Source: Bradyrhizobium barranii subsp. apii (GTDB lineage: Bacteria > Pseudomonadota > Alphaproteobacteria > Rhizobiales > Xanthobacteraceae). Taken from it: a stretch of DNA of 64,000 bases. Below are positions 10,249 to 48,567 of this stretch, one piece after another (the stretch's first letter is position 1; the number at the start of each line of letters is the position of its first letter). Location of the stretch: NCBI RefSeq assembly GCF_011516635.5, contig NZ_CP096255.1, forward strand, positions 8,505,501 through 8,569,500, written 5' to 3'. Below the pieces are notes generated by a model. The model saw nothing but the letters and a program-made list of their open reading frames with translations, had not been told where the DNA came from and made no database searches. The position numbers were made by a program, and so were the translations under genes.

Positions 10249-10376
10249 TCGTGCCCCGGACGCGATGCAGCACGAAGTGGTGCATCGCTGAGCCGGGGCC
10301 CAGAGCCTTCACCGAGACAAATAGGTCCCGGCTCTGCGCAGCAGCGTTGCACGCTGCAGCGCGTCCGGGACACGAG
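10249..10376. repeat. Intergenic palindromic repeat, family B (copy 1)
   Basis: Lies between the two channel genes. Its ends are inverted: CGTGCCCCGGACGCG at the left and CGCGTCCGGGACACG at the right, with internal AGCCGGGGCCCAGAGCC and CCGGCTCTGCGCAGCAGC elements. Related copies occur at 15441-15499 (half unit) and 37065-37220. The transcript would form a long hairpin between the two cistrons. Confidence 0.7.
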
Positions 10377-15440: not shown

Positions 15441-15499
15441 GAAGCATGGGTCCCGGCTCTGCGGAGCAGCGACGCGCTGCACCGCGTCCGGGACACGAG
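15441..15499. repeat. Intergenic repeat, family B (half unit)
   Basis: Contains GGGTCCCGGCTCTGCGGAGCAGC and ends CGCGTCCGGGACACGAG, matching the right half of the copy at 10249-10376. The left arm is absent. Confidence 0.6.
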
Positions 15500-18882: not shown

Positions 18883-21759
18883 TTGCGTCTGATCAGGTGC
18901 CTCGCGCCCATAGCGCTGGGCCTCATGATTCTCGTCGCCGCGTCCCCAGCGCGCGCGCTGGATGCCGTCAGCGTCCGCGGCGACGCGCCCGCGATCGACC
19001 TCACCGGCGTGCTCGAGCATCAGCGCAGTGACGCCGATCGCATCCAGGTCTCCACTGCGCCCGGCACCGACGGCATCGTCCGCCGCATCGAGGTGCGCGC
19101 CCGCGAGGGCGGCCAGAACTGGGTGGTGTTCGCGCTCGCCAACAACACCGACGACCAGCTCGACCGCCTGATCGTCGCCCCGCATTACCGCATCGTCTCG
19201 TCGGGCCTGCTGTGGCCCGACCTCGGGCTGTCGCGCATCGCGACCATCACGCCGTCGATCGGCGACCGCCCGGAGCGCCAGGAGAGCGCGACGGCCGACG
19301 TGTTCCGCATCACGCTCGATCCCGGCGCCGTCGTCACCTTTGTCGCGGAACTGCGCACCGACAAGCTGCCGCAGCTCTATCTGTGGGAGCCCGAATCCTA
19401 CAAGGACAAGGTCAATTCCTTCACGCTCTACCAGGGCATCGTGATCGGCATCTCCGGGCTTTTGGCGCTCGTGCTCACCATTCTGTTCGTGGTGAAGGGC
19501 AGCATCATGTTCCCGGCCGCCGCGGCGCTGGCCTGGGCGGTGCTGGTCTATATCGGTGTCGATTTCGGCTTCTGGGGCAAGGTGCTCGATATGTCGAACA
19601 ACGCCGAGCGCATCTGGCGCGCGGCGGGTGAAGCGATATTGGCGGCGACGCTGCTGGTGTTCCTGTTCGCCTATCTCAACCTCAGTCGATGGCACGTGCG
19701 CTATTCGCACATTACGGTGCTCTGGCTTGCCTTCCTGGGTTCGCTGGTGGCGCTCGCCTTGTTCGACCCGGCGGTGGCTTCCGGCATCGCCCGCATGTCG
19801 CTGGTGCTGATCGCCTTCGCGGGCTTCGCGCTGATCGTCTACCTCTCCACCCACGGCTTCGACCGCGCGGTGCTGCTGATCCCGACCTGGTTCCTGCTGG
19901 TGGTCTGGGTGGTCGCGGCCGGCATGACGGTCGCGGGCTCCGTCACCAACGACATCGTCGGCCCGGCTCTGCTCGGCGGCCTCGTGCTGATCGTGATGCT
20001 GATCGGCTTTACGGTGATGCAGCACGCCTTTGCCGGCGGCAGCGCCAGCACCGGCGTCGTCTCCGACATCGAGCGGCGCGCGCTGGCGCTGGCCGGCTCC
20101 GGCGATCTGATCTGGGACTGGGACGTCTCCGCCGACAAGGTCTTCACCAGCCCCGAGACCGAAGCCCTGCTCGGCCTCAAGCGCGGCACGCTGGAAGGCC
20201 CGGCCGCCTCATGGCTTGAGGTGCTGCACCCGCTCGACCAGGACCGGTTCCGCGCCGCGCTCGACAGCGTGCTCGACCAGCGCCGCGGCCGCCTGGTGCA
20301 GGACTTCCGGCTGCGCACGCCGGACGGTCATTTCATGTGGTTCGCGCTGAAGGCGCGCCCGGTGGTCGGCTCGGACGGCGAGGTCTCGCGCGTGGTCGGC
20401 ACGCTCACCGACGTCACCGAGCTGCGCAACGCCGAGGAGCGCCTGCTGCACGATTCCGTGCATGACAACCTCACCGGCCTGCCCAACCGGAAACTGTTCA
20501 TGGATCGGCTCGGCGCGGTCGCGCATTTCGCCAAGACCATGCCGACGCTGCGGCCGACGCTGATGGTGATCGACCTCGACCGCTTCAAGCAGGTCAACGA
20601 TTCCGTCGGCATCGCGGTCGGCGACTCGATCCTGCTGACGCTGGCCCGCCGCCTCACCCGCATCCTGAAGCCGCAGGACACGCTGGCGCGGCTTGCCGGC
20701 GACCAGTTCGGCCTGATCCTGCTCTCGGAGCAGGACCCGGCCCGCATCACCGCCTTCGCCGAGACCATCCGCAAGACCATCCGCGCCCCGATCGCCTTCA
20801 ACGACCGCGAGATTTTTCTCACCGCCTCGATCGGGCTCGCGCTCTCCGATCCGCAGACCCAGTTGACGGACGAGATCATCAAGGACGCCGAGCTTGCGAT
20901 GTATCATTCCAAGCGCATCGGCGGCGACCGCATCGACGTCTACAAGCCGGCGATGCGCGCGCGAAAGACCGACCGCCTGACGCTGGAGAGCGAGTTGCGC
21001 CGCGCCATCGAGCGGCAGGAGCTCACGATCCTGTACCAGCCGATCGTACGGCTGGAGGATCGTTCGATCGCCGGCTTCGAGGCGCTGGTGCGCTGGGATC
21101 ATCCGAAGCTCGGACGCATGGCTCCGTCGGAATTCATCAGCATCGCGGAAGAGACCGGCCTGATCGTCGACCTCGGCATGTTCGTGCTCGACCAGACCGC
21201 AAAGCAGCTTTCGGTGTGGCAGCGCGCGATGCGCTCGCGCGAGCCGATCTTCGCCTCCGTCAACGTCTCCTCGCGGCAATTGCTGCGCCACGATCTGATC
21301 CACGACATTCGTACCGTGCTGTCGCGCTCCTCGGTGGCGCGCGGCACGCTGAAGCTGGAATTGACGGAATCGCTGGTGATGGAGAACCCGGAGCACGCAG
21401 CCCAGATGCTGACGCGCATCCGCGAGCTCGGCACCGGGCTGTCGCTCGACGATTTCGGCACCGGCCATTCGTCGCTGGCCTATCTGCAGCGCTTCCCGTT
21501 CGACACCATCAAGATCGACCAGTCCTTCGTGCGCACCACCAACCGCGGCACCCGTCCGGTGATCCTGAAGTCGATCATCGCGCTCGCGCATGATCTCGGC
21601 ATGGACGTGGTCGCGGAAGGCGCCGAGACAGACTCCGACGCGGTCGAGCTCTACCAGATGGGCTGCGAATACGCGCAGGGCTTCGCCTTCGGCGAGCCCA
21701 TGGACGCGGACGCGGCGATGCGTCTGCTCACGGAAGTGCGGCTGGAAGCGGCGAGCTAG
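18883..21759 (+). CDS. Membrane PAS-GGDEF-EAL protein, probable c-di-GMP phosphodiesterase
   Basis: 958 aa from TTG 18883, which begins a signal peptide (residues about 1-25, ending ASPARA). A periplasmic beta-rich region of about 150 residues and seven TM helices (to about residue 385) resemble the 7TMR-DISM sensor layout. Then come PAS (DLIWDWDVSADKVF), GGDEF and EAL domains. The GGDEF signature is degenerate (AGDQF near residue 607), so cyclase activity is unlikely. The EAL motifs are intact: EALVRW, DDFGTG, KIDQSFV, VAEGAE. It would degrade c-di-GMP in response to an envelope signal. The stop TAG (21757-21759) spans the boundary of mobile element copy 1. Confidence 0.9.
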   Translation: MRLIRCLAPIALGLMILVAASPARALDAVSVRGDAPAIDLTGVLEHQRSDADRIQVSTAPGTDGIVRRIEVRAREGGQNWVVFALANNTDDQLDRLIVAPHYRIVSSGLLWPDLGLSRIATITPSIGDRPERQESATADVFRITLDPGAVVTFVAELRTDKLPQLYLWEPESYKDKVNSFTLYQGIVIGISGLLALVLTILFVVKGSIMFPAAAALAWAVLVYIGVDFGFWGKVLDMSNNAERIWRAAGEAILAATLLVFLFAYLNLSRWHVRYSHITVLWLAFLGSLVALALFDPAVASGIARMSLVLIAFAGFALIVYLSTHGFDRAVLLIPTWFLLVVWVVAAGMTVAGSVTNDIVGPALLGGLVLIVMLIGFTVMQHAFAGGSASTGVVSDIERRALALAGSGDLIWDWDVSADKVFTSPETEALLGLKRGTLEGPAASWLEVLHPLDQDRFRAALDSVLDQRRGRLVQDFRLRTPDGHFMWFALKARPVVGSDGEVSRVVGTLTDVTELRNAEERLLHDSVHDNLTGLPNRKLFMDRLGAVAHFAKTMPTLRPTLMVIDLDRFKQVNDSVGIAVGDSILLTLARRLTRILKPQDTLARLAGDQFGLILLSEQDPARITAFAETIRKTIRAPIAFNDREIFLTASIGLALSDPQTQLTDEIIKDAELAMYHSKRIGGDRIDVYKPAMRARKTDRLTLESELRRAIERQELTILYQPIVRLEDRSIAGFEALVRWDHPKLGRMAPSEFISIAEETGLIVDLGMFVLDQTAKQLSVWQRAMRSREPIFASVNVSSRQLLRHDLIHDIRTVLSRSSVARGTLKLELTESLVMENPEHAAQMLTRIRELGTGLSLDDFGTGHSSLAYLQRFPFDTIKIDQSFVRTTNRGTRPVILKSIIALAHDLGMDVVAEGAETDSDAVELYQMGCEYAQGFAFGEPMDADAAMRLLTEVRLEAAS

Positions 21760-21773
21760 AGCGTTTTCCGATC
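21759..21773 (+). repeat. Left terminal inverted repeat, element copy 1
   Basis: GAGCGTTTTCCGATC; pairs with the right end at 27969-27983 with two mismatches. The transposase stop codon (21772-21774) overlaps this repeat. Confidence 0.85.
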
Positions 21774-22718
21774 ACGTTGCGTCGTAACCAGCCGCGACGA
21801 GATAATTTTGACATTCCTCGGGTGAGAAGCGTTTGAGAGCGTTGGCGATTGCTTGCCAGAGATCGGGCATGGTGCGGGCTGCGGCGGTCCGCAACAGCGC
21901 TTTCAGTTTGGAGAAGGCCATTTCAATCGGGTTGAAGTCTGGACTGTAGGGCGGAAGATAGAGCAGGCTAGCTCCGACCGCCTGGATGGCCTCTCGAACG
22001 CCATGGACCTTGTGAGCGGGCAAGTTGTCCATGATAACGGTATCGCCCGGCCGCAGCGATGGGGCGAGCAATTGCTCGACGTAGGCCAGGAAAGCGTCGC
22101 CATCCATTGGACCGTCCAGAACAAGCGGCGCGATCAGACCGTCGGAGCGCAATCCAGCGGTGAACGTCGTCGTCTTCCAATGTCCGTGTGGGATAGCTGC
22201 ACGACATCGCTCGCCGCGTGGCGAGCGCCCGTAACGCCGCGCCATTTTGGTGTTGGCGCTGGTTTCGTCGATGAAGACGAGACGCTCAGGGTCAAGGTCG
22301 ATTTGCCCTTCGAACCACTCCTCACGTGCGGCATTTATATCGCCGCGCCGTTGCTCGGCGGCGTGCGCTGTCTTTTTTTAAGTGTGATCTTTCTGCGCTG
22401 GAAAAAACGCCAGAGCGACGCGATGCCAGTCGATATTCCACGACGTTTCAACAGTTCTCGCAACTCGGCAAGCGTGATATCCGGCCTCGCTGTCACCGCC
22501 TCCAGAATCAATTGCGAATGCGCTTCGATGCGCTGCGATTTGCGGTCACCGCCCTGGCGTTTAGGAACGATGTCGCCAACTTTCTTGAGGCGACCGCGCC
22601 AGCGGATTGCACTGGCCGCGCTGACACCAAAGCGCTCAGCAGCCTGTCGACAGGACATGCCACCGTCAATCGCGGCTACCACCCTTTGGCGAAGATCAAC
22701 CGAAAGCGCCCTGGCCAT
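21772..22718 (-). CDS. IS630-family transposase, two frames joined by programmed -1 frameshift (copy 1)
   Basis: Frame A runs from ATG 22718 ([20 protein letters not shown]) to a stop at 22335 and holds the helix-turn-helix DNA-binding part ([24 protein letters not shown]). Frame B continues to 21772 and holds the DDE domain: [21 protein letters not shown] and [16 protein letters not shown]. They overlap at a run of seven A on the coding strand (22373-22379), where a -1 slip gives [10 protein letters not shown] and a continuous protein of about 315 aa. This arrangement is known in IS630 elements. Asp replaces Ala of copy 2 in IDL(D/A)PERLV. Confidence 0.88.
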
Positions 22719-23417
22719 ACATGCTGGCCTCCCTCGCCAGCATGCAGCTTGAATCTGACTCGCGCCGTTTTGGGAATCTGGAGGGTTCTGTGAGGTCGCG
22801 CTCACGCGAGGGCGCGGCAGGCGCTTATGACGCGACCTCATTGAAGCCGGATTGAACGAAGGCGCGGGAGGCTATTCGCGGTTTTGCAGCTATGGGGATT
22901 GTTCGAGATCGCCATGCCCGATCTGCTGGCTCGGCGCGTGAGGCAGAGACACAGGAGTGCGCATCCTGGAAGAGTTGAGATCAGACGCGCTTCGCCTGAG
23001 ATCGCGATAGGCCTTTTGCTGCATCGGACGGTTGTTGTCGCGCAGTGTGACAGCACGGATTCGACATCGTCCGCGATGATCGAGACGCTGGGAGCGAAAT
23101 GACGAATGATGATCGTCGTGCACGACATGACTTGGCTCACGATGTGTCGCATCGGAACGGTGATGTTCGAGGGCTGGGGCGTCTGAAGCTATGTCGAAAG
23201 CGCTCAATGATGCGCATGACGCCACCACAATCGGGACAGGCAGGAACCTCGGCCCAGGTTTGAGCCTCCGAATCCACAGGCGACGGCTGGCCATCGTTTG
23301 GGGCTGTTCGCTCATGATCGAGAAGTTCGCGGCAAAGGGCGAGCTTGGCAGCGCGATGGCGGTTGGCCATGAAGCCGAAGTGGCGGATGCGGTGGAAGCC
23401 GTCAGGCGGCGTATGAA

Positions 23418-23424
23418 GCAGGAA
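23418..23424. repeat. Target site duplication of IS21, left
   Basis: GCAGGAA directly before the IS21 end; the same seven bases follow the other end at 26017-26023, and occur once at the matching site in copy 2. Confidence 0.85.
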
Positions 23425-23523
23425 TGCATATTTCAGTGATCGTGAGCAGCGATTTCGCGCGATCATGAGCGCCGAATTCAGACGATCGTGAGCAGCCTCG
23501 CTCCGGCCGAGGCGGTGATAGGG

Positions 23524-24285
23524 TCAGCGTTCTGGCTGCTCGTCAAGGGTGATGGTTTTGGCGTTGCGTTTTCGCATGCTTTCGCCAGCAAGCTGGAGGC
23601 GGTGAGCGTTGTGGACGAGGCGATCCAGAATCGCGTCGCCTAGCGTGGGATCTCCGATAACTTCGTGCCATGTGTCCACAGGGAGTTGGCTGGTTACGAT
23701 GGTGGAGGAGCGGCCATGGCGATCGTCAAGGATTTCCAGTAGATCGCGCCGCTCGGCAGCGGTGAGCACCGACAATCCCCAATCATCCAAAATCAGAACC
23801 TGGGCGCGGCCAAGGGTTTTGAGCAAGCGGGCATAACGTCCATCGCCCCGCGCGAGCCCCAACGCTTCGAACAATCTTGGGACGCGGTGATAGAGGACCG
23901 AGCGATTATCTCGGCAGGCCTTGTGGCCGAGGGCACAGGCTAACCAACTTTTGCCCAATCCGGTCGCCCCGGTTATGAGCAAATTCTCGTGGCGATCGAT
24001 CCAGTCGCCGCTGGCGAGCTTGGCGAAGACGGCCCGGTCGATACCCCGCGGCGTGCGCAAATCGACGTCCTCCACGCAGGCATTCTGGCGGAGCGAGGCC
24101 AGCTTGAGGCGCGTGGTGAGCCGCCTGGTGTCGCGTTCCGCCGCTTCCCGGTCGACCAGCAGGCCGATGCGATCTTCGAACGGCAAGGCTTCGAGATCAG
24201 GCGATCGTCGCTGCTCCTCGAAGGCCTTGGCCATGCCGCTCAAGCCGAGCTCGATCAGGCGTTCGTGGGTGGGATGGTTGAGCAT
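23524..24285 (-). CDS. istB: IS21-family helper ATPase IstB
   Basis: 253 aa. AAA+ ATPase with Walker A ITGATGLGKSWLACALG near residue 107 and Walker B VLILDDWGLS near residue 166. IstB chooses target DNA and stimulates IstA during IS21 transposition. The start lies 16 nt after the istA stop, the usual IS21 order. Confidence 0.93.
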   Translation of the reverse strand: MLNHPTHERLIELGLSGMAKAFEEQRRSPDLEALPFEDRIGLLVDREAAERDTRRLTTRLKLASLRQNACVEDVDLRTPRGIDRAVFAKLASGDWIDRHENLLITGATGLGKSWLACALGHKACRDNRSVLYHRVPRLFEALGLARGDGRYARLLKTLGRAQVLILDDWGLSVLTAAERRDLLEILDDRHGRSSTIVTSQLPVDTWHEVIGDPTLGDAILDRLVHNAHRLQLAGESMRKRNAKTITLDEQPER

Positions 24286-24301
24286 ACAGGTCTCCTTGGC
24301 T

Positions 24302-25843
24302 TCAGTGAAAATAATCGCGGCCGCGGATGTTGCCGTGGCGCAGGGGTTGGTGTTCGGAGGGCTCGTCGAGAAAGGTACGATCCAGACCGTTCTGGAGGAT
24401 GGAGCGGATCGAGGCGACGGATCGCGCCTTGATCAGAATGCCGCGCCGGCAGGCCGCTTCGACGCGCTCCGCGCTGTAGCTTTTGACCAGTGACAGAATG
24501 CCGAGGCAGGTGCGAAAGCCTTGCTCGGGATGCGGCCGGGCCGCGATCACGGCCTGGAAGAAGGCGGCGGTCGACGGACCGATCCGCTCGCCGGCGACGA
24601 TCACTCCGGCGGGCGTCCATTGACCGTAGCGCCGATGGGCGCTGGGCATATGGTCGGCGATGGTGGTGTGGCCCCGCCGGTTGGGCGCGCGGGCGTGGCT
24701 GGCGATCCTGCGGCCGTTGTGGAAGATCTCGACCGTTCTGTCATCGATGCGTGCGTCGACAAGCTCACGGATGAGCCGATACGGCGCGGAATACCAGTGT
24801 CCATCGATCTCGATATGATAGTCGGGGCCGATCCGGCATCGCTTCCAGCGTGCGAAAGCGTAAGCCTGGTCCGGCAGCTTTGTAAGCTTGGGCTTGTCGA
24901 GCTCGGCGAACAGTTCGGCGCGACTGGCGCCAAAGTCGCGCATCTGCCTTGCATTGAGTTCGACGACGAGTGTTTTGATGGCTGCGTTCAGCTCCGCCAA
25001 CGAAAAGAAGCGTTGGTTGCGCAGCCGCGCCAGAATCCATCGCTGGGCGACTTGCACCGCAACTTCGACCTTTGCCTTATCTTTTGGGCGCCGCGGCCGG
25101 GCTGCGAGAATGGCCGTGCCGTAATGGCTCGCCATCTCGGCATAGGTTCGGTTGAGGCCGGGATCGTGGCGGTCGGGATTGGTGACGGCGGCCTTGAGAT
25201 TGTCGCAGACTACGAATGTCGGCACGCCGCCGAGGAAGGCGAAAAGATTGATGTGGACCCGGATCCAGTCGGCGAGCCCCTCGCTTGGACAGGCCTCGGC
25301 ATAGGTATAGTTGGAGGCGCCCATCGCCGCGACGAACAGCTTCATCGACTGCACTTCCCCGTTTGAGGGATCGATGACGTCGATGGTGTCGCCGGCGAAA
25401 TCCACGAAAACCTTCTCGCCGCCCAGATGCGTCTGCCGCATCGAAGGCCGGGCTCGCCCCTTCCAGGCCTCGTACGTCGTGCAGAACCAGGTGTAGCCGA
25501 AGCCATCGGGATGGGTGGCGCGATACTCGTCCCACAGCAGCCGACGGGTCACGTTGCGTCGGCGCAGCTCCTTGTCGACATAGCCCCAGTCGGGAACGGC
25601 CCGCTGGGGGCTCTGCGACGCAGGCCTCGGCGCCGGGAAAAGCAGCAGCTCCAGGTCCTCGTCGCTCATTCCGGCCGGCAACGGCCACTTCAGCCCGGCA
25701 GCCCCGGCTCGGCGTAGATAGCTGTGCACGGCGCCGTTGCTGATGCCCAAGGTGCGCGCGATGGCTCGCTCCGGCAAGCCTTGAACATGTTTTAAGCGGA
25801 GAACCTCTTTGATCCGGCGCATCGACAATCTCTGGGTGGGCAT
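24302..25843 (-). CDS. istA: IS21-family transposase IstA
   Basis: 513 aa. N-terminal helix-turn-helix (LPERAIARTLGISNGAVHSYLRR), then the DDE integrase core: FVDFAGDTIDV, FVVCDNLKAAV and KDKAKVEVAVQ supply the two Asp and the Glu. C-terminal beta-barrel region as in other IstA proteins. It cuts and joins the element ends, together with IstB encoded next. Full length, apparently intact. Confidence 0.93.
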   Translation of the reverse strand: MPTQRLSMRRIKEVLRLKHVQGLPERAIARTLGISNGAVHSYLRRAGAAGLKWPLPAGMSDEDLELLLFPAPRPASQSPQRAVPDWGYVDKELRRRNVTRRLLWDEYRATHPDGFGYTWFCTTYEAWKGRARPSMRQTHLGGEKVFVDFAGDTIDVIDPSNGEVQSMKLFVAAMGASNYTYAEACPSEGLADWIRVHINLFAFLGGVPTFVVCDNLKAAVTNPDRHDPGLNRTYAEMASHYGTAILAARPRRPKDKAKVEVAVQVAQRWILARLRNQRFFSLAELNAAIKTLVVELNARQMRDFGASRAELFAELDKPKLTKLPDQAYAFARWKRCRIGPDYHIEIDGHWYSAPYRLIRELVDARIDDRTVEIFHNGRRIASHARAPNRRGHTTIADHMPSAHRRYGQWTPAGVIVAGERIGPSTAAFFQAVIAARPHPEQGFRTCLGILSLVKSYSAERVEAACRRGILIKARSVASIRSILQNGLDRTFLDEPSEHQPLRHGNIRGRDYFH

Positions 25844-26016
25844 CGGCCTTCCTCGTTCACTGACGAGGCAGTTCCTAAGCCGGTTGAGTTGTCGGCCGAA
25901 GCGGGCTGAGTTGCTGAAAAGCTGCTCACGATCCCGCGAAATCCGTGCTCACGATCGTCTGAAATCTCTGCTCACGATCCCCTGAAATCCGTGCTCACGA
26001 TCCCGCGAAACATGCA

Positions 26017-26023
26017 GCAGGAA
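26017..26023. repeat. Target site duplication of IS21, right
   Basis: GCAGGAA, second copy of the duplication at 23418-23424. Confidence 0.85.
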
Positions 26024-26982
26024 ACGGCGAATGAACTCATCGGGCTTGAGATTCATGATCTTTGTCGCGCTGTTTTGGCGATAGTCCTTCCATGAGAAGG
26101 CGACATGATCGTCGTCGAGTGCGACGAGCCGGCTGTTGGCGATCGCGACGCGATGGGTGTAGCGGCCGAGATAGGCCAGGACCTGTGCGGGTCCGCCGAA
26201 GGGCCGCTTGGCGTAAGCAACCCAGTTGATGCGTCGCATGGCGTCGAGGTGGGCCGCAAAGGCAGCCGGCTCGGCCAGAGCTCCGAGATCGCCGAAGAAA
26301 CGCAAGGCACCGGAGTTGAAGGCTGCCGACAGACGTTTGAGAAAAAGTGTGCGAAATAGTCTGGACAACGGTTTGACGGCCAGGAAGAAGTTCGGTCGGC
26401 AAGCGGTCCAGCGCGCGCCATCGGGCGAGAGGCCGCCACCCGGAACGACGCAATGGACGTGGGGATGATGCATCAGCGTCTGTCCCCAGGTGTGGAGGAC
26501 GGCGACGCCGCCGATCGCACCGCCGAGCCGGCGTGGATTGGCGGCGAGCGTCGTCATCGCCTCGGCGGCAGCCTTGAACAGGATGGCATAGACGACGGCC
26601 TTGTTCTGGAAAGCGATCGCGGCGATCGGTGCGGGAAGTGTAAAGACGACGTGGAAATAGGGAACCGGAAGCAGGTCGGCTTGACGCGCGGCGAGCCACG
26701 CGGCTCGGGCTCTCCCCTGACACTTCGGACAGTGCCGATTGCGGCAGGAATTATAGGCAACGCGTGTCGTGCCGCAGTCGTCGCAAGCCTGCATGTGGCC
26801 GCCGAGCGCCTCGGTCCGGCACGCAACGATCGCGCTCATCACGCGCCGCTCGACCCGCCCCAGATGACCGGCATGTACACGGCGATAGGCGTCGCCATGC
26901 CGGCGCAGAATATCGGCAATCTCGATGGCGGGCCTGTTGGAGCGGATGTCGGAGCGGGTCATGACCCGCATCCCGCTGCGGG

Positions 26983-27843
26983 TCATCCAGGTGGCGTCAC
27001 CTCCAGCGACAGGCGATCGAGCGGGCTCTGCGTCGCTCGGATCGTATCGGTGGCGACCTGCGTGTAGCGCGCTGTCGACGACAAATTATTGTGCCCGAGC
27101 AAGACCTGGATGATCCGGATATCGGTTCCGTTCTCGAGAAGATGTGTCGCGAAGCTGTGGCGCAGCGTGTGCAGCGTGACGCGCTTGGTCAGGCCCGCAG
27201 CCTTCACCGCCGACCGGCAGGCGGCATGCAGCACGGTCTGATCGATCGGATGATCTTCGTCACGACCAGGGAACAGATAAAGCCGCGGCCGGGCGAGCCG
27301 CCAGTAGGTGCGCAGGATGCCCAGCAGCTGGGGCGACAGCATCACGTTGCGATCCTTCGCGCCCTTGCCGTGGCGCACCTGGATGACGCCGCGGGCGCTG
27401 TCGATGTCTTCGATCCGCAGTCCCGCAACCTCCGAGGCCCTGAGCCCGGCCGCATAGGCGGTGGTGAGCGCGGCGCGGCTCTTCAGGCTCGATACCGCTT
27501 CAAGAAACTGAACCACTTCGTCGGCGCTGAGAACGACCGGCAGCTTGCGCGGTTCTCGCGCATAGGGAATGCGCTCTGGGATGAGCGCCTCGCCGAGCGT
27601 GACGCCGTAGAAAAACCGTAGCGCACAGACGATCTGGTTCAGCGCCGGCCATGAGATGCCGGTCGAGACCAAATGCACCTGGAAGGCGCGGACGTCTTCC
27701 AGCTCTAACCGGTCAGGCGATCGGCCAAAATAGCGGCTGAACTTCGAAACCGCGCTGATGTAGGATCTTTGCGTCGCCGGCGACAGATTGCGGACGGTCA
27801 TGTCTTCGATCATGCGGCGGCGAAGAGGGCTCAAATCGGCCAT
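26983..27843 (-). CDS. Tyrosine recombinase of the IS91-type element (copy 1)
   Basis: 286 aa from ATG 27843, which has GGAG 7 nt upstream. SAM-like N-terminal domain (LSPATQRSYISAVSKFSRYFG), then the catalytic domain with AAGLRASEVAGLR (first Arg), HTLRHSFATHLL (His-x-x-Arg), LLGHNNLSSTARYTQV (His and nucleophilic Tyr). The stop overlaps the HUH transposase start as ATGA. XerC-like integrases accompany some IS91 elements. Here Leu replaces the Pro found before HTLRH in copy 2 (base 27173), next to the catalytic box. Confidence 0.9.
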   Translation of the reverse strand: MADLSPLRRRMIEDMTVRNLSPATQRSYISAVSKFSRYFGRSPDRLELEDVRAFQVHLVSTGISWPALNQIVCALRFFYGVTLGEALIPERIPYAREPRKLPVVLSADEVVQFLEAVSSLKSRAALTTAYAAGLRASEVAGLRIEDIDSARGVIQVRHGKGAKDRNVMLSPQLLGILRTYWRLARPRLYLFPGRDEDHPIDQTVLHAACRSAVKAAGLTKRVTLHTLRHSFATHLLENGTDIRIIQVLLGHNNLSSTARYTQVATDTIRATQSPLDRLSLEVTPPG

Positions 27844-27968
27844 CTCGATACTCCTGTCTGAGGGGGTGGGCTCCAACACCCACATCCTCTCAGCCAGGAG
27901 GCGATCTATGCCACCTTGCCCCCTACGCCGCGGCAGCGGCTTCGTTCAATCCCCACCCGATTCTTTCC

Positions 27969-27983
27969 GGTCGGAAAATGCTC
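27969..27983 (-). repeat. Right terminal inverted repeat, element copy 1
   Basis: Reads GAGCATTTTCCGACC on the minus strand, 13/15 identical to the left end; TA follows at 27984-27985 within CTAG. Confidence 0.85.
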
Positions 27984-37064: not shown

Positions 37065-37220
37065 TTCGTGTCCCGGACGCGCTGCAGCGTGTAACGCTGC
37101 TGCGCAGAGCCGGGACCCAGCACTGCGAATTTCACCAAAGAATGGGCCCCGGCTCTGCAAAGCGGCGTTGCCGGACGATGCTACGCATCGCCTAGGCCGC
37201 ATTGCGTCCGGGGCACGAAA
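37065..37220. repeat. Intergenic palindromic repeat, family B (copy 3)
   Basis: TTCGTGTCCCGGACGCG at the left and the inverse GCGTCCGGGGCACGAA at the right, with GCAGCGTGTAACGCTGC and GAGCCGGGACCCAG inside. It fills most of the 220-bp spacer between convergent genes. Confidence 0.7.
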
Positions 37221-44920: not shown

Positions 44921-44937
44921 GCCGGCCACCCACCCTA

Positions 44938-44952
44938 GAGCGTTTTCCGATC
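44938..44952 (+). repeat. Left terminal inverted repeat, element copy 2
   Basis: GAGCGTTTTCCGATC, identical to the left end of copy 1; TA at 44936-44937. Confidence 0.85.
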
Positions 44953-45897
44953 ACGTTGCGTCGTAACCAGCCGCGACGAGATAATTTTGACATTCCTCGG
45001 GTGAGAAGCGTTTGAGAGCGTTGGCGATTGCTTGCCAGAGATCGGGCATGGTGCGGGCTGCGGCGGTCCGCAACAGCGCTTTCAGTTTGGAGAAGGCCAT
45101 TTCAATCGGGTTGAAGTCTGGACTGTAGGGCGGAAGATAGAGCAGGCTAGCTCCGACCGCCTGGATGGCCTCTCGAACGCCATGGACCTTGTGAGCGGGC
45201 AAGTTGTCCATGATAACGGTATCGCCCGGCCGCAGCGATGGGGCGAGCAATTGCTCGACGTAGGCCAGGAAAGCGTCGCCATCCATTGGACCGTCCAGAA
45301 CAAGCGGCGCGATCAGACCGTCGGAGCGCAATCCAGCGGTGAACGTCGTCGTCTTCCAATGTCCGTGTGGGATAGCTGCACGACATCGCTCGCCGCGTGG
45401 CGAGCGCCCGTAACGCCGCGCCATTTTGGTGTTGGCGCTGGTTTCGTCGATGAAGACGAGACGCTCAGGGGCAAGGTCGATTTGCCCTTCGAACCACTCC
45501 TCACGTGCGGCATTTATATCGCCGCGCCGTTGCTCGGCGGCGTGCGCTGTCTTTTTTTAAGTGTGATCTTTCTGCGCTGGAAAAAACGCCAGAGCGACGC
45601 GATGCCAGTCGATATTCCACGACGTTTCAACAGTTCTCGCAACTCGGCAAGCGTGATATCCGGCCTCGCTGTCACCGCCTCCAGAATCAATTGCGAATGC
45701 GCTTCGATGCGCTGCGATTTGCGGTCACCGCCCTGGCGTTTAGGAACGATGTCGCCAACTTTCTTGAGGCGACCGCGCCAGCGGATTGCACTGGCCGCGC
45801 TGACACCAAAGCGCTCAGCAGCCTGTCGACAGGACATGCCACCGTCAATCGCGGCTACCACCCTTTGGCGAAGATCAACCGAAAGCGCCCTGGCCAT
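44951..45897 (-). CDS. IS630-family transposase with programmed -1 frameshift (copy 2)
   Basis: Same two-frame arrangement as copy 1: frame A from ATG 45897 to a stop at 45514 with the helix-turn-helix, frame B to 44951 with the DDE motifs, and the seven-A slip site at 45552-45558. It differs from copy 1 by one base at 45471, giving IDLAPERLV instead of IDLDPERLV just before the first catalytic Asp ([10 protein letters not shown]). Confidence 0.88.
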
Positions 45898-46315
45898 ACA
45901 TGCTGGCCTCCCTCGCCAGCATGCAGCTTGAATCTGACTCGCGCCGTTTTGGGAATCTGGAGGGTTCTGTGAGGTCGCGCTCACGCGAGGGCGCGGCAGG
46001 CGCTTATGACGCGACCTCATTGAAGCCGGATTGAACGAAGGCGCGGGAGGCTATTCGCGGTTTTGCAGCTATGGGGATTGTTCGAGATCGCCATGCCCGA
46101 TCTGCTGGCTCGGCGCGTGAGGCAGAGACACAGGAGTGCGCATCCTGGAAGAGTTGAGATCAGACGCGCTTCGCCTGAGATCGCGATAGGCCTTTTGCTG
46201 CATCGGACGGTTGTTGTCGCGCAGTGTGACAGCACGGATTCGACATCGTCCGCGATGATCGAGACGCTGGGAGCGAAATGACGAATGATGATCGTCGTGC
46301 ACGACATGACTTGGC

Positions 46316-47566
46316 TCACGATGTGTCGCATCGGAACGGTGATGTTCGAGGGCTGGGGCGTCTGAAGCTATGTCGAAAGCGCTCAATGATGCGCATGACG
46401 CCACCACAATCGGGACAGGCAGGAACCTCGGCCCAGGTTTGAGCCTCCGAATCCACAGGCGACGGCTGGCCATCGTTTGGGGCTGTTCGCTCATGATCGA
46501 GAAGTTCGCGGCAAAGGGCGAGCTTGGCAGCGCGATGGCGGTTGGCCATGAAGCCGAAGTGGCGGATGCGGTGGAAGCCGTCAGGCGGCGTATGAAGCAG
46601 GAAACGGCGAATGAACTCATCGGGCTTGAGATTCATGATCTTTGTCGCGCTGTTTTGGCGATAGTCCTTCCATGAGAAGGCGACATGATCGTCGTCGAGT
46701 GCGACGAGCCGGCTGTTGGCGATCGCGACGCGATGGGTGTAGCGGCCGAGATAGGCCAGGACCTGTGCGGGTCCGCCGAAGGGCCGCTTGGCGTAAACAA
46801 CCCAGTTGATGCGTCGCATGGCGTCGAGGTGGGCCGCAAAGGCAGCCGGCTCGGCCAGAGCTCCGAGATCGCCGAAGAAACGCAAGGCACCGGAGTTGAA
46901 GGCTGCCGACAGACGTTTGAGAAAAAGTGTGCGAAATAGTCTGGACAACGGTTTGACGGCCAGGAAGAAGTTCGGTCGGCAAGCGGTCCAGCGCGCGCCA
47001 TCGGGCGAGAGGCCGCCACCCGGAACGACGCAATGGACGTGGGGATGATGCATCAGCGTCTGTCCCCAGGTGTGGAGGACGGCGACGCCGCCGATCGCAC
47101 CGCCGAGCCGGCGTGGATTGGCGGCGAGCGTCGTCATCGCCTCGGCGGCAGCCTTGAACAGGATGGCATAGACGACGGCCTTGTTCTGGAAAGCGATCGC
47201 GGCGATCGGTGCGGGAAGTGTAAAGACGACGTGGAAATAGGGAACCGGAAGCAGGTCGGCTTGACGCGCGGCGAGCCACGCGGCTCGGGCTCTCCCCTGA
47301 CACTTCGGACAGTGCCGATTGCGGCAGGAATTATAGGCAACGCGTGTCGTGCCGCAGTCGTCGCAAGCCTGCATGTGGCCGCCGAGCGCCTCGGTCCGGC
47401 ACGCAACGATCGCGCTCATCACGCGCCGCTCGACCCGCCCCAGATGACCGGCATGTACACGGCGATAGGCGTCGCCATGCCGGCGCAGAATATCGGCAAT
47501 CTCGATGGCGGGCCTGTTGGAGCGGATGTCGGAGCGGGTCATGACCCGCATCCCGCTGCGGGTCAT
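46316..47566 (-). CDS. IS91-family HUH (Y2-type) transposase, intact
   Basis: 416 aa. N-terminal zinc-binding region CDDCG...CRNRHCPKC near residues 68-88, the HUH motif HPHVHCVVPGGG near residue 173, the tyrosine region YLGRYTHRVAIANSR near 270, and a C-terminal CPDCGG knuckle near 388. IS91 enzymes nick one strand and move by rolling-circle transposition. The ATG overlaps the recombinase stop (47563-47566). Val replaces Ala of copy 1 in NWVVYAKRPFGG (base 46797). Confidence 0.92.
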   Translation of the reverse strand: MTRSGMRVMTRSDIRSNRPAIEIADILRRHGDAYRRVHAGHLGRVERRVMSAIVACRTEALGGHMQACDDCGTTRVAYNSCRNRHCPKCQGRARAAWLAARQADLLPVPYFHVVFTLPAPIAAIAFQNKAVVYAILFKAAAEAMTTLAANPRRLGGAIGGVAVLHTWGQTLMHHPHVHCVVPGGGLSPDGARWTACRPNFFLAVKPLSRLFRTLFLKRLSAAFNSGALRFFGDLGALAEPAAFAAHLDAMRRINWVVYAKRPFGGPAQVLAYLGRYTHRVAIANSRLVALDDDHVAFSWKDYRQNSATKIMNLKPDEFIRRFLLHTPPDGFHRIRHFGFMANRHRAAKLALCRELLDHERTAPNDGQPSPVDSEAQTWAEVPACPDCGGVMRIIERFRHSFRRPSPRTSPFRCDTS

Positions 47567-48423
47567 CCAGGTGGCGTCACCTCCAGCGACAGGCGATCGA
47601 GCGGGCTCTGCGTCGCTCGGATCGTATCGGTGGCGACCTGCGTGTAGCGCGCTGTCGACGACAAATTATTGTGCCCGAGCAAGACCTGGATGATCCGGAT
47701 ATCGGTTCCGTTCTCGAGAAGATGTGTCGCGAAGCTGTGGCGCAGCGTGTGCGGCGTGACGCGCTTGGTCAGGCCCGCAGCCTTCACCGCCGACCGGCAG
47801 GCGGCATGCAGCACGGTCTGATCGATCGGATGATCTTCGTCACGACCAGGGAACAGATAAAGCCGCGGCCGGGCGAGCCGCCAGTAGGTGCGCAGGATGC
47901 CCAGCAGCTGGGGCGACAGCATCACGTTGCGATCCTTCGCGCCCTTGCCGTGGCGCACCTGGATGACGCCGCGGGCGCTGTCGATGTCTTCGATCCGCAG
48001 TCCCGCAACCTCCGAGGCCCTGAGCCCGGCCGCATAGGCGGTGGTGAGCGCGGCGCGGCTCTTCAGGCTCGATACCGCTTCAAGAAACTGAACCACTTCG
48101 TCGGCGCTGAGAACGACCGGCAGCTTGCGCGGTTCTCGCGCATAGGGAATGCGCTCTGGGATGAGCGCCTCGCCGAGCGTGACGCCGTAGAAAAACCGTA
48201 GCGCACAGACGATCTGGTTCAGCGCCGGCCATGAGATGCCGGTCGAGACCAAATGCACCTGGAAGGCGCGGACGTCTTCCAGCTCTAACCGGTCAGGCGA
48301 TCGGCCAAAATAGCGGCTGAACTTCGAAACCGCGCTGATGTAGGATCTTTGCGTCGCCGGCGACAGATTGCGGACGGTCATGTCTTCGATCATGCGGCGG
48401 CGAAGAGGGCTCAAATCGGCCAT
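47563..48423 (-). CDS. Tyrosine recombinase of the IS91-type element (copy 2)
   Basis: 286 aa from ATG 48423 with GGAG upstream. Catalytic residues as in copy 1, and the canonical VTPHTLRHSFATHLL, with Pro where copy 1 has Leu. Translationally coupled to the HUH transposase. In IS91 elements of this type the integrase role is not well established; resolution of circular or dimeric intermediates is one possibility. Confidence 0.92.
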   Translation of the reverse strand: MADLSPLRRRMIEDMTVRNLSPATQRSYISAVSKFSRYFGRSPDRLELEDVRAFQVHLVSTGISWPALNQIVCALRFFYGVTLGEALIPERIPYAREPRKLPVVLSADEVVQFLEAVSSLKSRAALTTAYAAGLRASEVAGLRIEDIDSARGVIQVRHGKGAKDRNVMLSPQLLGILRTYWRLARPRLYLFPGRDEDHPIDQTVLHAACRSAVKAAGLTKRVTPHTLRHSFATHLLENGTDIRIIQVLLGHNNLSSTARYTQVATDTIRATQSPLDRLSLEVTPPG

Positions 48424-48548
48424 CTCGATACTCCTGTCTGAGGGGGTGGGCTCCAACACCCACATCCTCTCAGCCAGGAGGCGATCTATGCCACCTTGCC
48501 CCCTACGCCGCGGCAGCGGCTTCGTTCAATCCCCACCCGATTCTTTCC

Positions 48549-48563
48549 GGTCGGAAAATGCTC
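48549..48563 (-). repeat. Right terminal inverted repeat, element copy 2
   Basis: Reads GAGCATTTTCCGACC on the minus strand, identical to the right end of copy 1; TA at 48564-48565. Confidence 0.85.
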
Positions 48564-48567
48564 TAGC

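Follow-up and report, generated by a model that had tools for sequence, protein, structure and literature searches.

Can an insertion sequence of one family carry a complete element of another as its cargo? The question is raised by positions 44938-48563 of the window (the whole 64,000-nucleotide stretch analysed here), a unit of 3,626 bp in which IS630 encloses a complete 2,574-bp IS91-type element. The answer that we reach is probably yes: an IS91-type element inserted in IS630, the enlarged unit then transposed, and the IS91 lineage repeats this process via its motif preference.

The nested unit and its two copies

The coordinates of the features (Table 1) place the IS91 genes between the IS630 transposase and the right end of the unit, as the original prediction had it, and the 3.6-kb unit with IS630 ends around a complete IS91 is present as described, with TA on both sides. 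The outer element has the HTH and DDE transposase, TA duplication and terminal inverted repeats of IS630-Tc1/mariner elements. In a profile search, its transposase shows the Pfam domains HTH_Tnp_IS630 and DDE_3 and matches NCBIfam IS630. A -1 frameshift at an A7 run (45552-45558) presumably links the two transposase frames, and the 947-nt span is a single annotated CDS in plasmid copies of the unit. The ends of the unit, GAGCGTTTTCCGATC on the left and GAGCATTTTCCGACC on the right (reverse complement), agree at 13 of 15 positions on visual comparison. A compound transposon, with two flanking copies of one IS, was rejected as there is a single IS630 frame only.

The insertion point of the inner element is defined by 41 exact IS91-free junctions of this IS630 in the genome, where the element without IS91 is 1,052 bp in length. 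IS91 entered on the upstream side of the transposase gene, 32 bp in from the right end, leaving the IS630 ends and transposase gene intact. Both borders of the IS91 carry the 4-nt repeat AATC, which is not separable from element sequence and makes the borders ambiguous to this extent. Like other members of the IS91 family, the inner element has an IS91 HUH transposase (435.2 bits against NF033538, cutoff 125), no visible terminal inverted repeat at its tips, and one border that abuts a fixed short target. Its tyrosine recombinase is integron-integrase/Xer-like, with scores below the NCBIfam cutoffs.

Table 1. Features of the nested unit (copy 2) and position of copy 1 in the window
Feature	Position	Strand	Remarks
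Left TA target duplication of unit	44936..44937		CTAG context; other copies: single TA in empty sites
IS630 left terminal repeat GAGCGTTTTCCGATC	44938..44952	+	
IS630 transposase, two overlapping frames	44951..45897	-	HTH part from 45897, DDE_3 part to 44951
First GAATC (GANTC) of paired motif	45930..45934	+	23 bp from second
Second GAATC, target sequence	45953..45957	+	Abuts IS91 left border
IS91-type element, complete	45958..48531	-	2,574 bp; delimited against IS91-free IS630 copies and other insertion sites
IS91-family HUH transposase	46316..47566	-	416 aa; NF033538; Y2_Tnp, Zn_Tnp_IS91
Tyrosine recombinase	47563..48465	-	300 aa; Phage_integrase 9.9e-41
IS630 right tip, includes terminal repeat (GGTCGGAAAATGCTC)	48532..48563	+	32 nt
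Right TA duplication of unit	48564..48565		
Copy 1 of unit, IS21 within its IS91 transposase gene	21759..27983	+	6,225 bp

Copy 1 has the ends and TA flanks of copy 2 at a different site; the flanks of the two differ, so that the claim of identical ends at two unrelated sites holds. Its extra length is due to an IS21 (istA 24302-25843, istB 23524-24285; 7-8 bp duplication), not mentioned in the original prediction, that sits in its IS91 transposase gene. Aligned in two pieces, the copies show 1 difference over 1,669 positions and 3 over 1,976, and their similarity ends within a few bases of the unit borders. With so few differences over two long pieces, and 13 such junctions in the genome, a chance repeat was rejected.

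The GAATC target and the GANTC pair

Across 265 genomes, GAATC precedes 116 of the 121 exact IS91 left ends. Of 29 site clusters, 21 have a further GANTC (the CcrM sequence) at exactly 23 bp upstream; among the 20 clusters that adjoin a transposase match, the number is 18. One representative was taken per cluster, and the 118 site readings include places fetched twice. Counted by distinct 50-nt flank, the proportion is 36 of 44. Relatives in other genera were sampled at 80 loci, and the end motif is present, with no more than 4 mismatches, at 38. After omission of two ends lying off the contig and five with exactly 4 mismatches and no GANTC behind, treated as unrecognisable (36 are readable if these are kept), 28 of 31 readable ends abut GANTC, 16 of these 28 with the exact 23-bp pair. 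GATTG, GATTA or GATTT is found instead at L221, L222 and L230. A preference of the IS91 lineage for GAATC, with another GANTC at a distance of 23 bp, is strongly supported.

It is quite possible, if on the doubtful side, that the 23-bp pair is merely a feature of IS promoters, and that IS91 reads GAATC alone and hits IS that are numerous or accessible. A GANTC at exactly 23 bp is missing from 8 of the 29 clusters and, of the 31 distant sites, from 13, and genome G006, which has no exact IS91 left end, has an IS91-free IS630 (L184) resembling that of the window (94.5% over 1,053 nt) that bears the pair. This explanation is opposed by the background rate of the exact pair (0/67 and 3/295), which is far below that at IS91 sites, and by near-23 spacings: the second GANTC is at 22 and 24 bp at two sites without a transposase match (L073 and L017), and at 22 bp at four distant sites.

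All 13 insertions in the IS630 of the window are at the paired site, with none at the other three sites; under the reading of a mobile unit, these represent one event.

Copies, borders and empty sites

The genome of the window contains 50 exact IS91 left ends, 40 of which lie in two host elements. The first is the IS630 described above, with 13 IS630::IS91 junctions, 11 of them in units with both IS630 ends. Each of these 11 units has TA on each side, at distinct sites and mostly in a CTAG context. The original prediction took a further site with the same borders as support for mobility; the count by ends gives these 11 units, and a search for full-length copies, over at most 40 scored candidates, gives at least 10, the IS21-bearing copy 1 not among them. 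Shared flanks and varying IS91 borders, which it had named as evidence against itself, were not found: the flanks differ, the left IS91 junction is identical in 13 of 13 cases, and the right junction is identical in all 11 units in which it is preserved. The exact IS630/IS91 junction had no matches in a genome-contig collection from which the window's own or near genomes were possibly left out.

Empty sites were sought in a genome of the same species (G011), in which the joined flanks of 8 of the 11 units were matched. The anticipated single TA is present at six, as exact empty sites without IS630; at the L001 and L008 sites, the G011 sequence has diverged at the junction and is unreadable. 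The joined flanks of L003, L007 and L009 had no match in G011. Unit mobility is well supported, and from the borders, duplications and empty sites we infer that the unit is moved by the IS630 transposase.

The second host element belongs to the IS5 family and accounts for 27 IS91 left ends, in a unit of 4,096 bp; its exact IS91-free junction had no matches in the same genome. A 6-bp duplication flanks six of the eight IS5-host copies with both ends, the other two lacking matching duplications, and 3 of the 11 copies fetched for this check are without a right end. In genome G091, where 15 of 30 exact IS91 left ends were read (those on fetched stretches), a different IS630::IS91 unit occurs in at least 10 copies, each flanked by TA on both sides. 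When host transposases were sought on the strand co-oriented with IS91, the lineage was often found just upstream of transposase genes of IS630, IS5, IS701 and IS66. The proposal that an IS630 moves the IS91 as cargo is upheld by the constant junctions and empty sites, with one amendment: a single IS630 with accidental cargo is rejected because the same IS91 is present in other hosts, and the nesting is recurrent.

Independent IS91 insertions at one strong target in numerous resident IS630 copies, with units that were never mobile, are an unlikely explanation. The insertion point is indeed the preferred GANTC pair, and haplotypes are common to, and shuffled among, units, IS91-free copies and other hosts. 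The IS630 haplotypes in units resemble those in IS91-free copies, and the two common IS91 variants (positions 840 and 1796) are found in every one of the four possible combinations, with three or four within each host class. Tracing the units by IS91 SNPs thus gave no answer, and no clean single lineage can be drawn; the SNPs of IS630 and IS91 have become mixed through gene conversion or repeated insertions. Against independent insertion, SNP 533G is present in two of 12 units (L077 left out) and in none of 35 IS91-free copies, these being the junctions among the 41 that aligned without gaps. The 27 IS5-host junctions with IS91 and none exact without it argue in the same direction, as do the six empty sites, at which repeated in-place insertion would require both IS630 and IS91 to have arrived since. 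So does the presence of the full unit, in near-identical form, on plasmids of three species (B. barranii, B. septentrionale and B. quebecense).

Segmental duplication, or homologous recombination from one IS copy to another, is very improbable as the way in which the copies spread. Several copies do have chimeric flanks (L013; L289, L294 and L295; L081 and L085): in the plasmid copies L289, L294 and L295, the left half of the unit is followed by different sequence after IS91; L291 and L292, also on plasmids, have the same right flank but different left flanks. The SNP mosaics likewise point to gene conversion. These chimeric plasmid copies, together with the IS5-host copies that lack matching duplications or a right end, indicate that recombination also moves borders; it is poorly compatible with 11 units that have different flanks and TA on both sides, and with six clean empty sites. 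That IS91 moved IS630 by one-ended, ISCR-like rolling-circle transposition is hardly credible: rolling-circle transposases can overrun termination and take adjoining DNA, according to a passage of PMC5714925, but all 11 units have an IS630 end at TA at both borders, and none is bounded by an IS91 end.

Proposed course and relation to known elements

Under the preferred reading of insertion followed by transposition, an IS91-type rolling-circle element would have entered IS630 at GAATC upstream of the transposase gene, and the enlarged IS630 would then have transposed as a unit to TA sites via its own DDE transposase. The same IS91 lineage would have repeated this nested insertion in other hosts (an IS5-family element and a different IS630 elsewhere), because the preferred GAATC/GANTC pair lies just upstream of the transposase genes of several IS families. 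The best reading is that this IS91 variant targets IS promoter regions and then hitchhikes. That each pair of host and IS91 recurs in many places as one unit points to a parasite of mobile DNA whose homing target is the control region of the host. The paired motif may be read by the IS91 transposase or by the recombinase, and read-through from IS91 may affect expression of the host transposase. The 23-bp distance could correspond to the -35 to -10 spacing of a promoter, and the GANTC pair may be a CcrM/GcrA-responsive transposase promoter. Passages of PMC8374602, PMC5714925, PMC7987155 and PMC3667746 contain no GANTC-to-promoter spacing, and a term search of the main text of PMC11514494 gave no mention of transposase or insertion sequence. 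More tentatively, an alphaproteobacterial IS91-type clade might have evolved to target DDE insertion sequences at their promoter, with its CcrM-methylatable GANTC pair, and to lie co-oriented between promoter and terminal repeat with the host IS still mobile; such a clade would be mainly a hyperparasite, borrowing spread, and possibly cell-cycle timing, from its hosts.

The classical IS91 target is GAAC/CTTG, and other IS91 members with recombinase genes exist. The element described here differs from the IS91 family in targeting GAATC, usually in a GANTC pair 23 bp apart and often beside IS transposase genes, and in bearing a tyrosine recombinase. The unit resembles IS630-Tc1/mariner elements in its DDE_3 and IS630 HTH domains and its TA duplication in a mostly CTAG context; it differs in that a complete foreign IS separates the right terminal repeat from the region upstream of the transposase gene. 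In transporter IS and nested or compound elements, one IS frame with extra genes moves as a unit. The present unit is similarly one IS frame with additional genes, but the passenger is a complete mobile element that occupies an equivalent place in several host IS families. In ISCR elements, an IS91-type transposase is linked to movement of adjoining DNA (as outlined in a passage of PMC5714925), whereas the mobile unit here is bounded by the ends of its neighbour, IS630, and not by an IS91 end. In searches of the open-licence literature, we found no description of an IS91 that targets GATTC/GAATC pairs or is nested in IS630. The locus is a natural example, recurring in several hosts, of mobile DNA that travels in other mobile elements, and a simple motif may explain how.

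The paired GANTC upstream of IS630, IS5, IS701 and IS66 transposases suggests that transposition in Alphaproteobacteria shares a control linked to methylation, much as Dam controls IS10 and IS50. In the genome of the window, the paired motif has 104 matches versus one for the reversed pattern; as a control this is weak, since CTAAG is probably uncommon in genomes of this kind. Matches number 3 to 56 in each of the other 264 genomes, so that only the excess in the genome of the window is due to IS copies.

Structure of the nested unit

The original prediction, that IS630 ends bound a 3.6-kb unit carrying an IS91-type element, holds for this stretch as part of a wider phenomenon: the coordinates are exact, the 15-nt ends match at 13 positions, and a second copy in the window has identical borders at a different site. 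All three of the claimed enzyme types are encoded (an IS630 transposase, an IS91-family HUH transposase and a tyrosine recombinase). The window's genome (10.58 Mb, 3 contigs) also contains 41 exact IS91-free junctions of the same IS630, hereafter host A, and these read GGGAATC/CCCACC at the target, which delimits the IS91-type element as listed below.

Coordinates of features in the window
Feature	Position	Remarks
Unit	44938-48563	3,626 bp, TA-flanked
IS91-type element	45958-48531	2,574 bp; borders ambiguous by 4-nt AATC
A7 run (transposase strand)	45552-45558	in overlap of two IS630 transposase frames
Second unit copy	21759-27983	IS21 additionally inside its IS91 transposase gene
IS21 (istA/istB)	23425-26011	7-8 bp duplication
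Repeat family, 52-54 nt	10324-10375, 15447-15498, 37066-37119	88-98% alike

The IS630 transposase of the unit comprises two overlapping frames. In near-identical plasmid copies the gene is annotated as a single CDS of 947 nt; as this length is not divisible by three, a -1 frameshift that would join the two frames is implied. The second unit copy consists of three insertion sequences, one within another. A short repeat family also occurs at three places in the window.

Evidence for mobility and recombination of the unit

Further copies were sought, and the window's genome proved to contain 11 units that retain both ends and have a TA at each border; two more (L011 and L077) have no readable right border within the stretches fetched. 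For an empty-site test, the 110 + 110 nt flanks of the 11 units were joined and searched against another genome of the same species, giving a match across the junction for eight units and no match for three. The single TA expected at an empty site was recovered exactly, with no IS630, in six of the eight matches; the other two had diverged at the junction. SNP 533G occurs in two of the 12 units read (L001 and L004) and in none of the 35 IS91-free copies aligned without gaps. That the 3.6-kb IS630::IS91 element moves as a unit is well supported.

Other sequence variants run against a simple story of unit mobility. The IS630 SNPs 129, 682, 835 and 849 are mixed between units and copies free of IS91. 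Within IS91, the variants at 840 and 1796 are common to host A, host B (an IS5-family element, described below) and others, in several combinations. The shuffled IS630 SNPs and common IS91 variants indicate that either gene conversion or repeated insertion has a part and, judging from these patterns, must have contributed. Near-identical IS630 copies (L041-L069) carry many combinations of the four mixed SNPs, a pattern suggestive of gene conversion among them.

TA-flanked units with both ends are also present on predicted conjugative plasmids of B. barranii subsp. apii 38S5, B. septentrionale 28S5 and B. quebecense 66S1MB; those of 38S5 and 28S5 have their right flank in common and different left flanks. 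In three other plasmid copies (L289, L294 and L295) the left half of the unit is preserved, and different sequence follows the IS91 right end. In these three and in L013, the left and right IS91 flanks derive from different host elements or places, the pattern expected from recombination between IS91 copies.

Host elements and target motif

The unit is one instance of a wider IS91 passenger lineage. Between 384 and 622 insertion sequences are predicted in Bradyrhizobium strains such as B. quebecense 66S1MB (PMC8374602), in whose main text the term IS91 has no match. Of the 50 exact IS91 left ends in the window's genome, 13 lie in host A, 27 in host B and 10 elsewhere. Host A carries three GAATC on one strand and one GATTC, and a single one of its sites is used by all 13 insertions. 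With its IS91, host B measures 4,096 bp (ends GTCGTCCGT...); 11 stretches were fetched, three of them without the right end, and a 6-bp duplication is present in six of the eight copies having both ends. An exact search of the window's genome, which would miss a mutated junction, returned no IS91-free host B junction, so the IS91-loaded form is probably what spreads. In another genome (G091), 15 of 30 exact left ends were fetched, and 10 of these belong to a single kind of unit, 3,630-3,631 bp long and built on a different IS630 (TA/GAGC...GCTC/TA), at different sites. The lineage has multiplied as a passenger in three or more host elements. Five relatives with the same left end in the same-species genome (L154-L158) show a transposase match only from about residue 80 and absent or weak recombinase matches (25-29%), so their neighbouring gene differs.

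The 265 genomes of the genus contain 121 exact left ends, distributed over 26 genomes; GAATC precedes 116 of these ends, spread over 24 genomes. The 118 site readings (some places were fetched twice) formed 29 clusters; a further GANTC lies exactly 23 bp upstream in 21 clusters, at 22 in one and at 24 in one (exactly 23 in 36/44 when counted by distinct flank). A transposase model adjoins 20 of the 29 clusters (12 IS5, 7 IS630 including host A, 1 IS701), as called by NCBIfam matches at E 0.001 or better, often under the curated cutoff owing to partial frames; the scan covered the IS91-co-oriented strand only. The exact pair is present in 18 of these 20 clusters versus three of the nine others. 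As background, GANTC stands 23 bp from GAATC in 0/67 cases elsewhere in the window and in 3/295 in the first 3 kb of distant loci. A marked preference of the lineage for a motif located beside IS transposase genes is strongly supported. The window's genome contains 104 occurrences of GAATC-N18-GAATC; in the 264 others the count per genome ranges from 3 to 56. One genome with no exact IS91 left end (G006) has the pair in a host-A-like IS630 that is free of IS91. A triple-GANTC motif (GAATCC..GACTC..GAATC) recurs in several Bradyrhizobium genomes (e.g. G001:C20:77909-77936 and G005:C1:2142827-2142854).

Of the 80 best-matching transposase relatives in named genomes (from at least 581), 31 could be read at a recognisable end. 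GANTC abuts 28 of these ends, and 16 of the 28 have another GANTC exactly 23 bp away. Two of the three relatives that do not abut GANTC (L221 and L222) also have one at 23 bp; in the remainder the second GANTC is at 22 bp in four, at 25 in one and not near in eight. Among the taxa in which the exact pair occurs are Mesorhizobium, Rhizobium, Sinorhizobium, Shinella, Methylocystis, Terasakiella, Roseospira, Microvirga and Pseudoxanthomonas. When neighbouring frames were scanned at 20 of the relatives' sites, a transposase model (IS630, IS5, IS701 or IS66) was found at nine of 12 with the exact pair versus two of eight without it, both IS66.

Gene order and a possible link to CcrM

Along the transposase strand, the recombinase is followed by the IS91 transposase, the IS91 end, GATTC, 18 nt, GATTC and the host transposase. 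This order places IS91 between the host terminal repeat and the region directly upstream of the host transposase gene, neither of which is disrupted. The 23-bp spacing is that usual between -35 and -10 elements, and GANTC is the sequence that CcrM methylates; the pair may form a methylation-dependent promoter. The window's genome encodes one protein with a RAMA domain, the C-terminal domain of CcrM, and has four GcrA-family matches; in a control search of 14 genomes, the RAMA domain was present in Caulobacter only.
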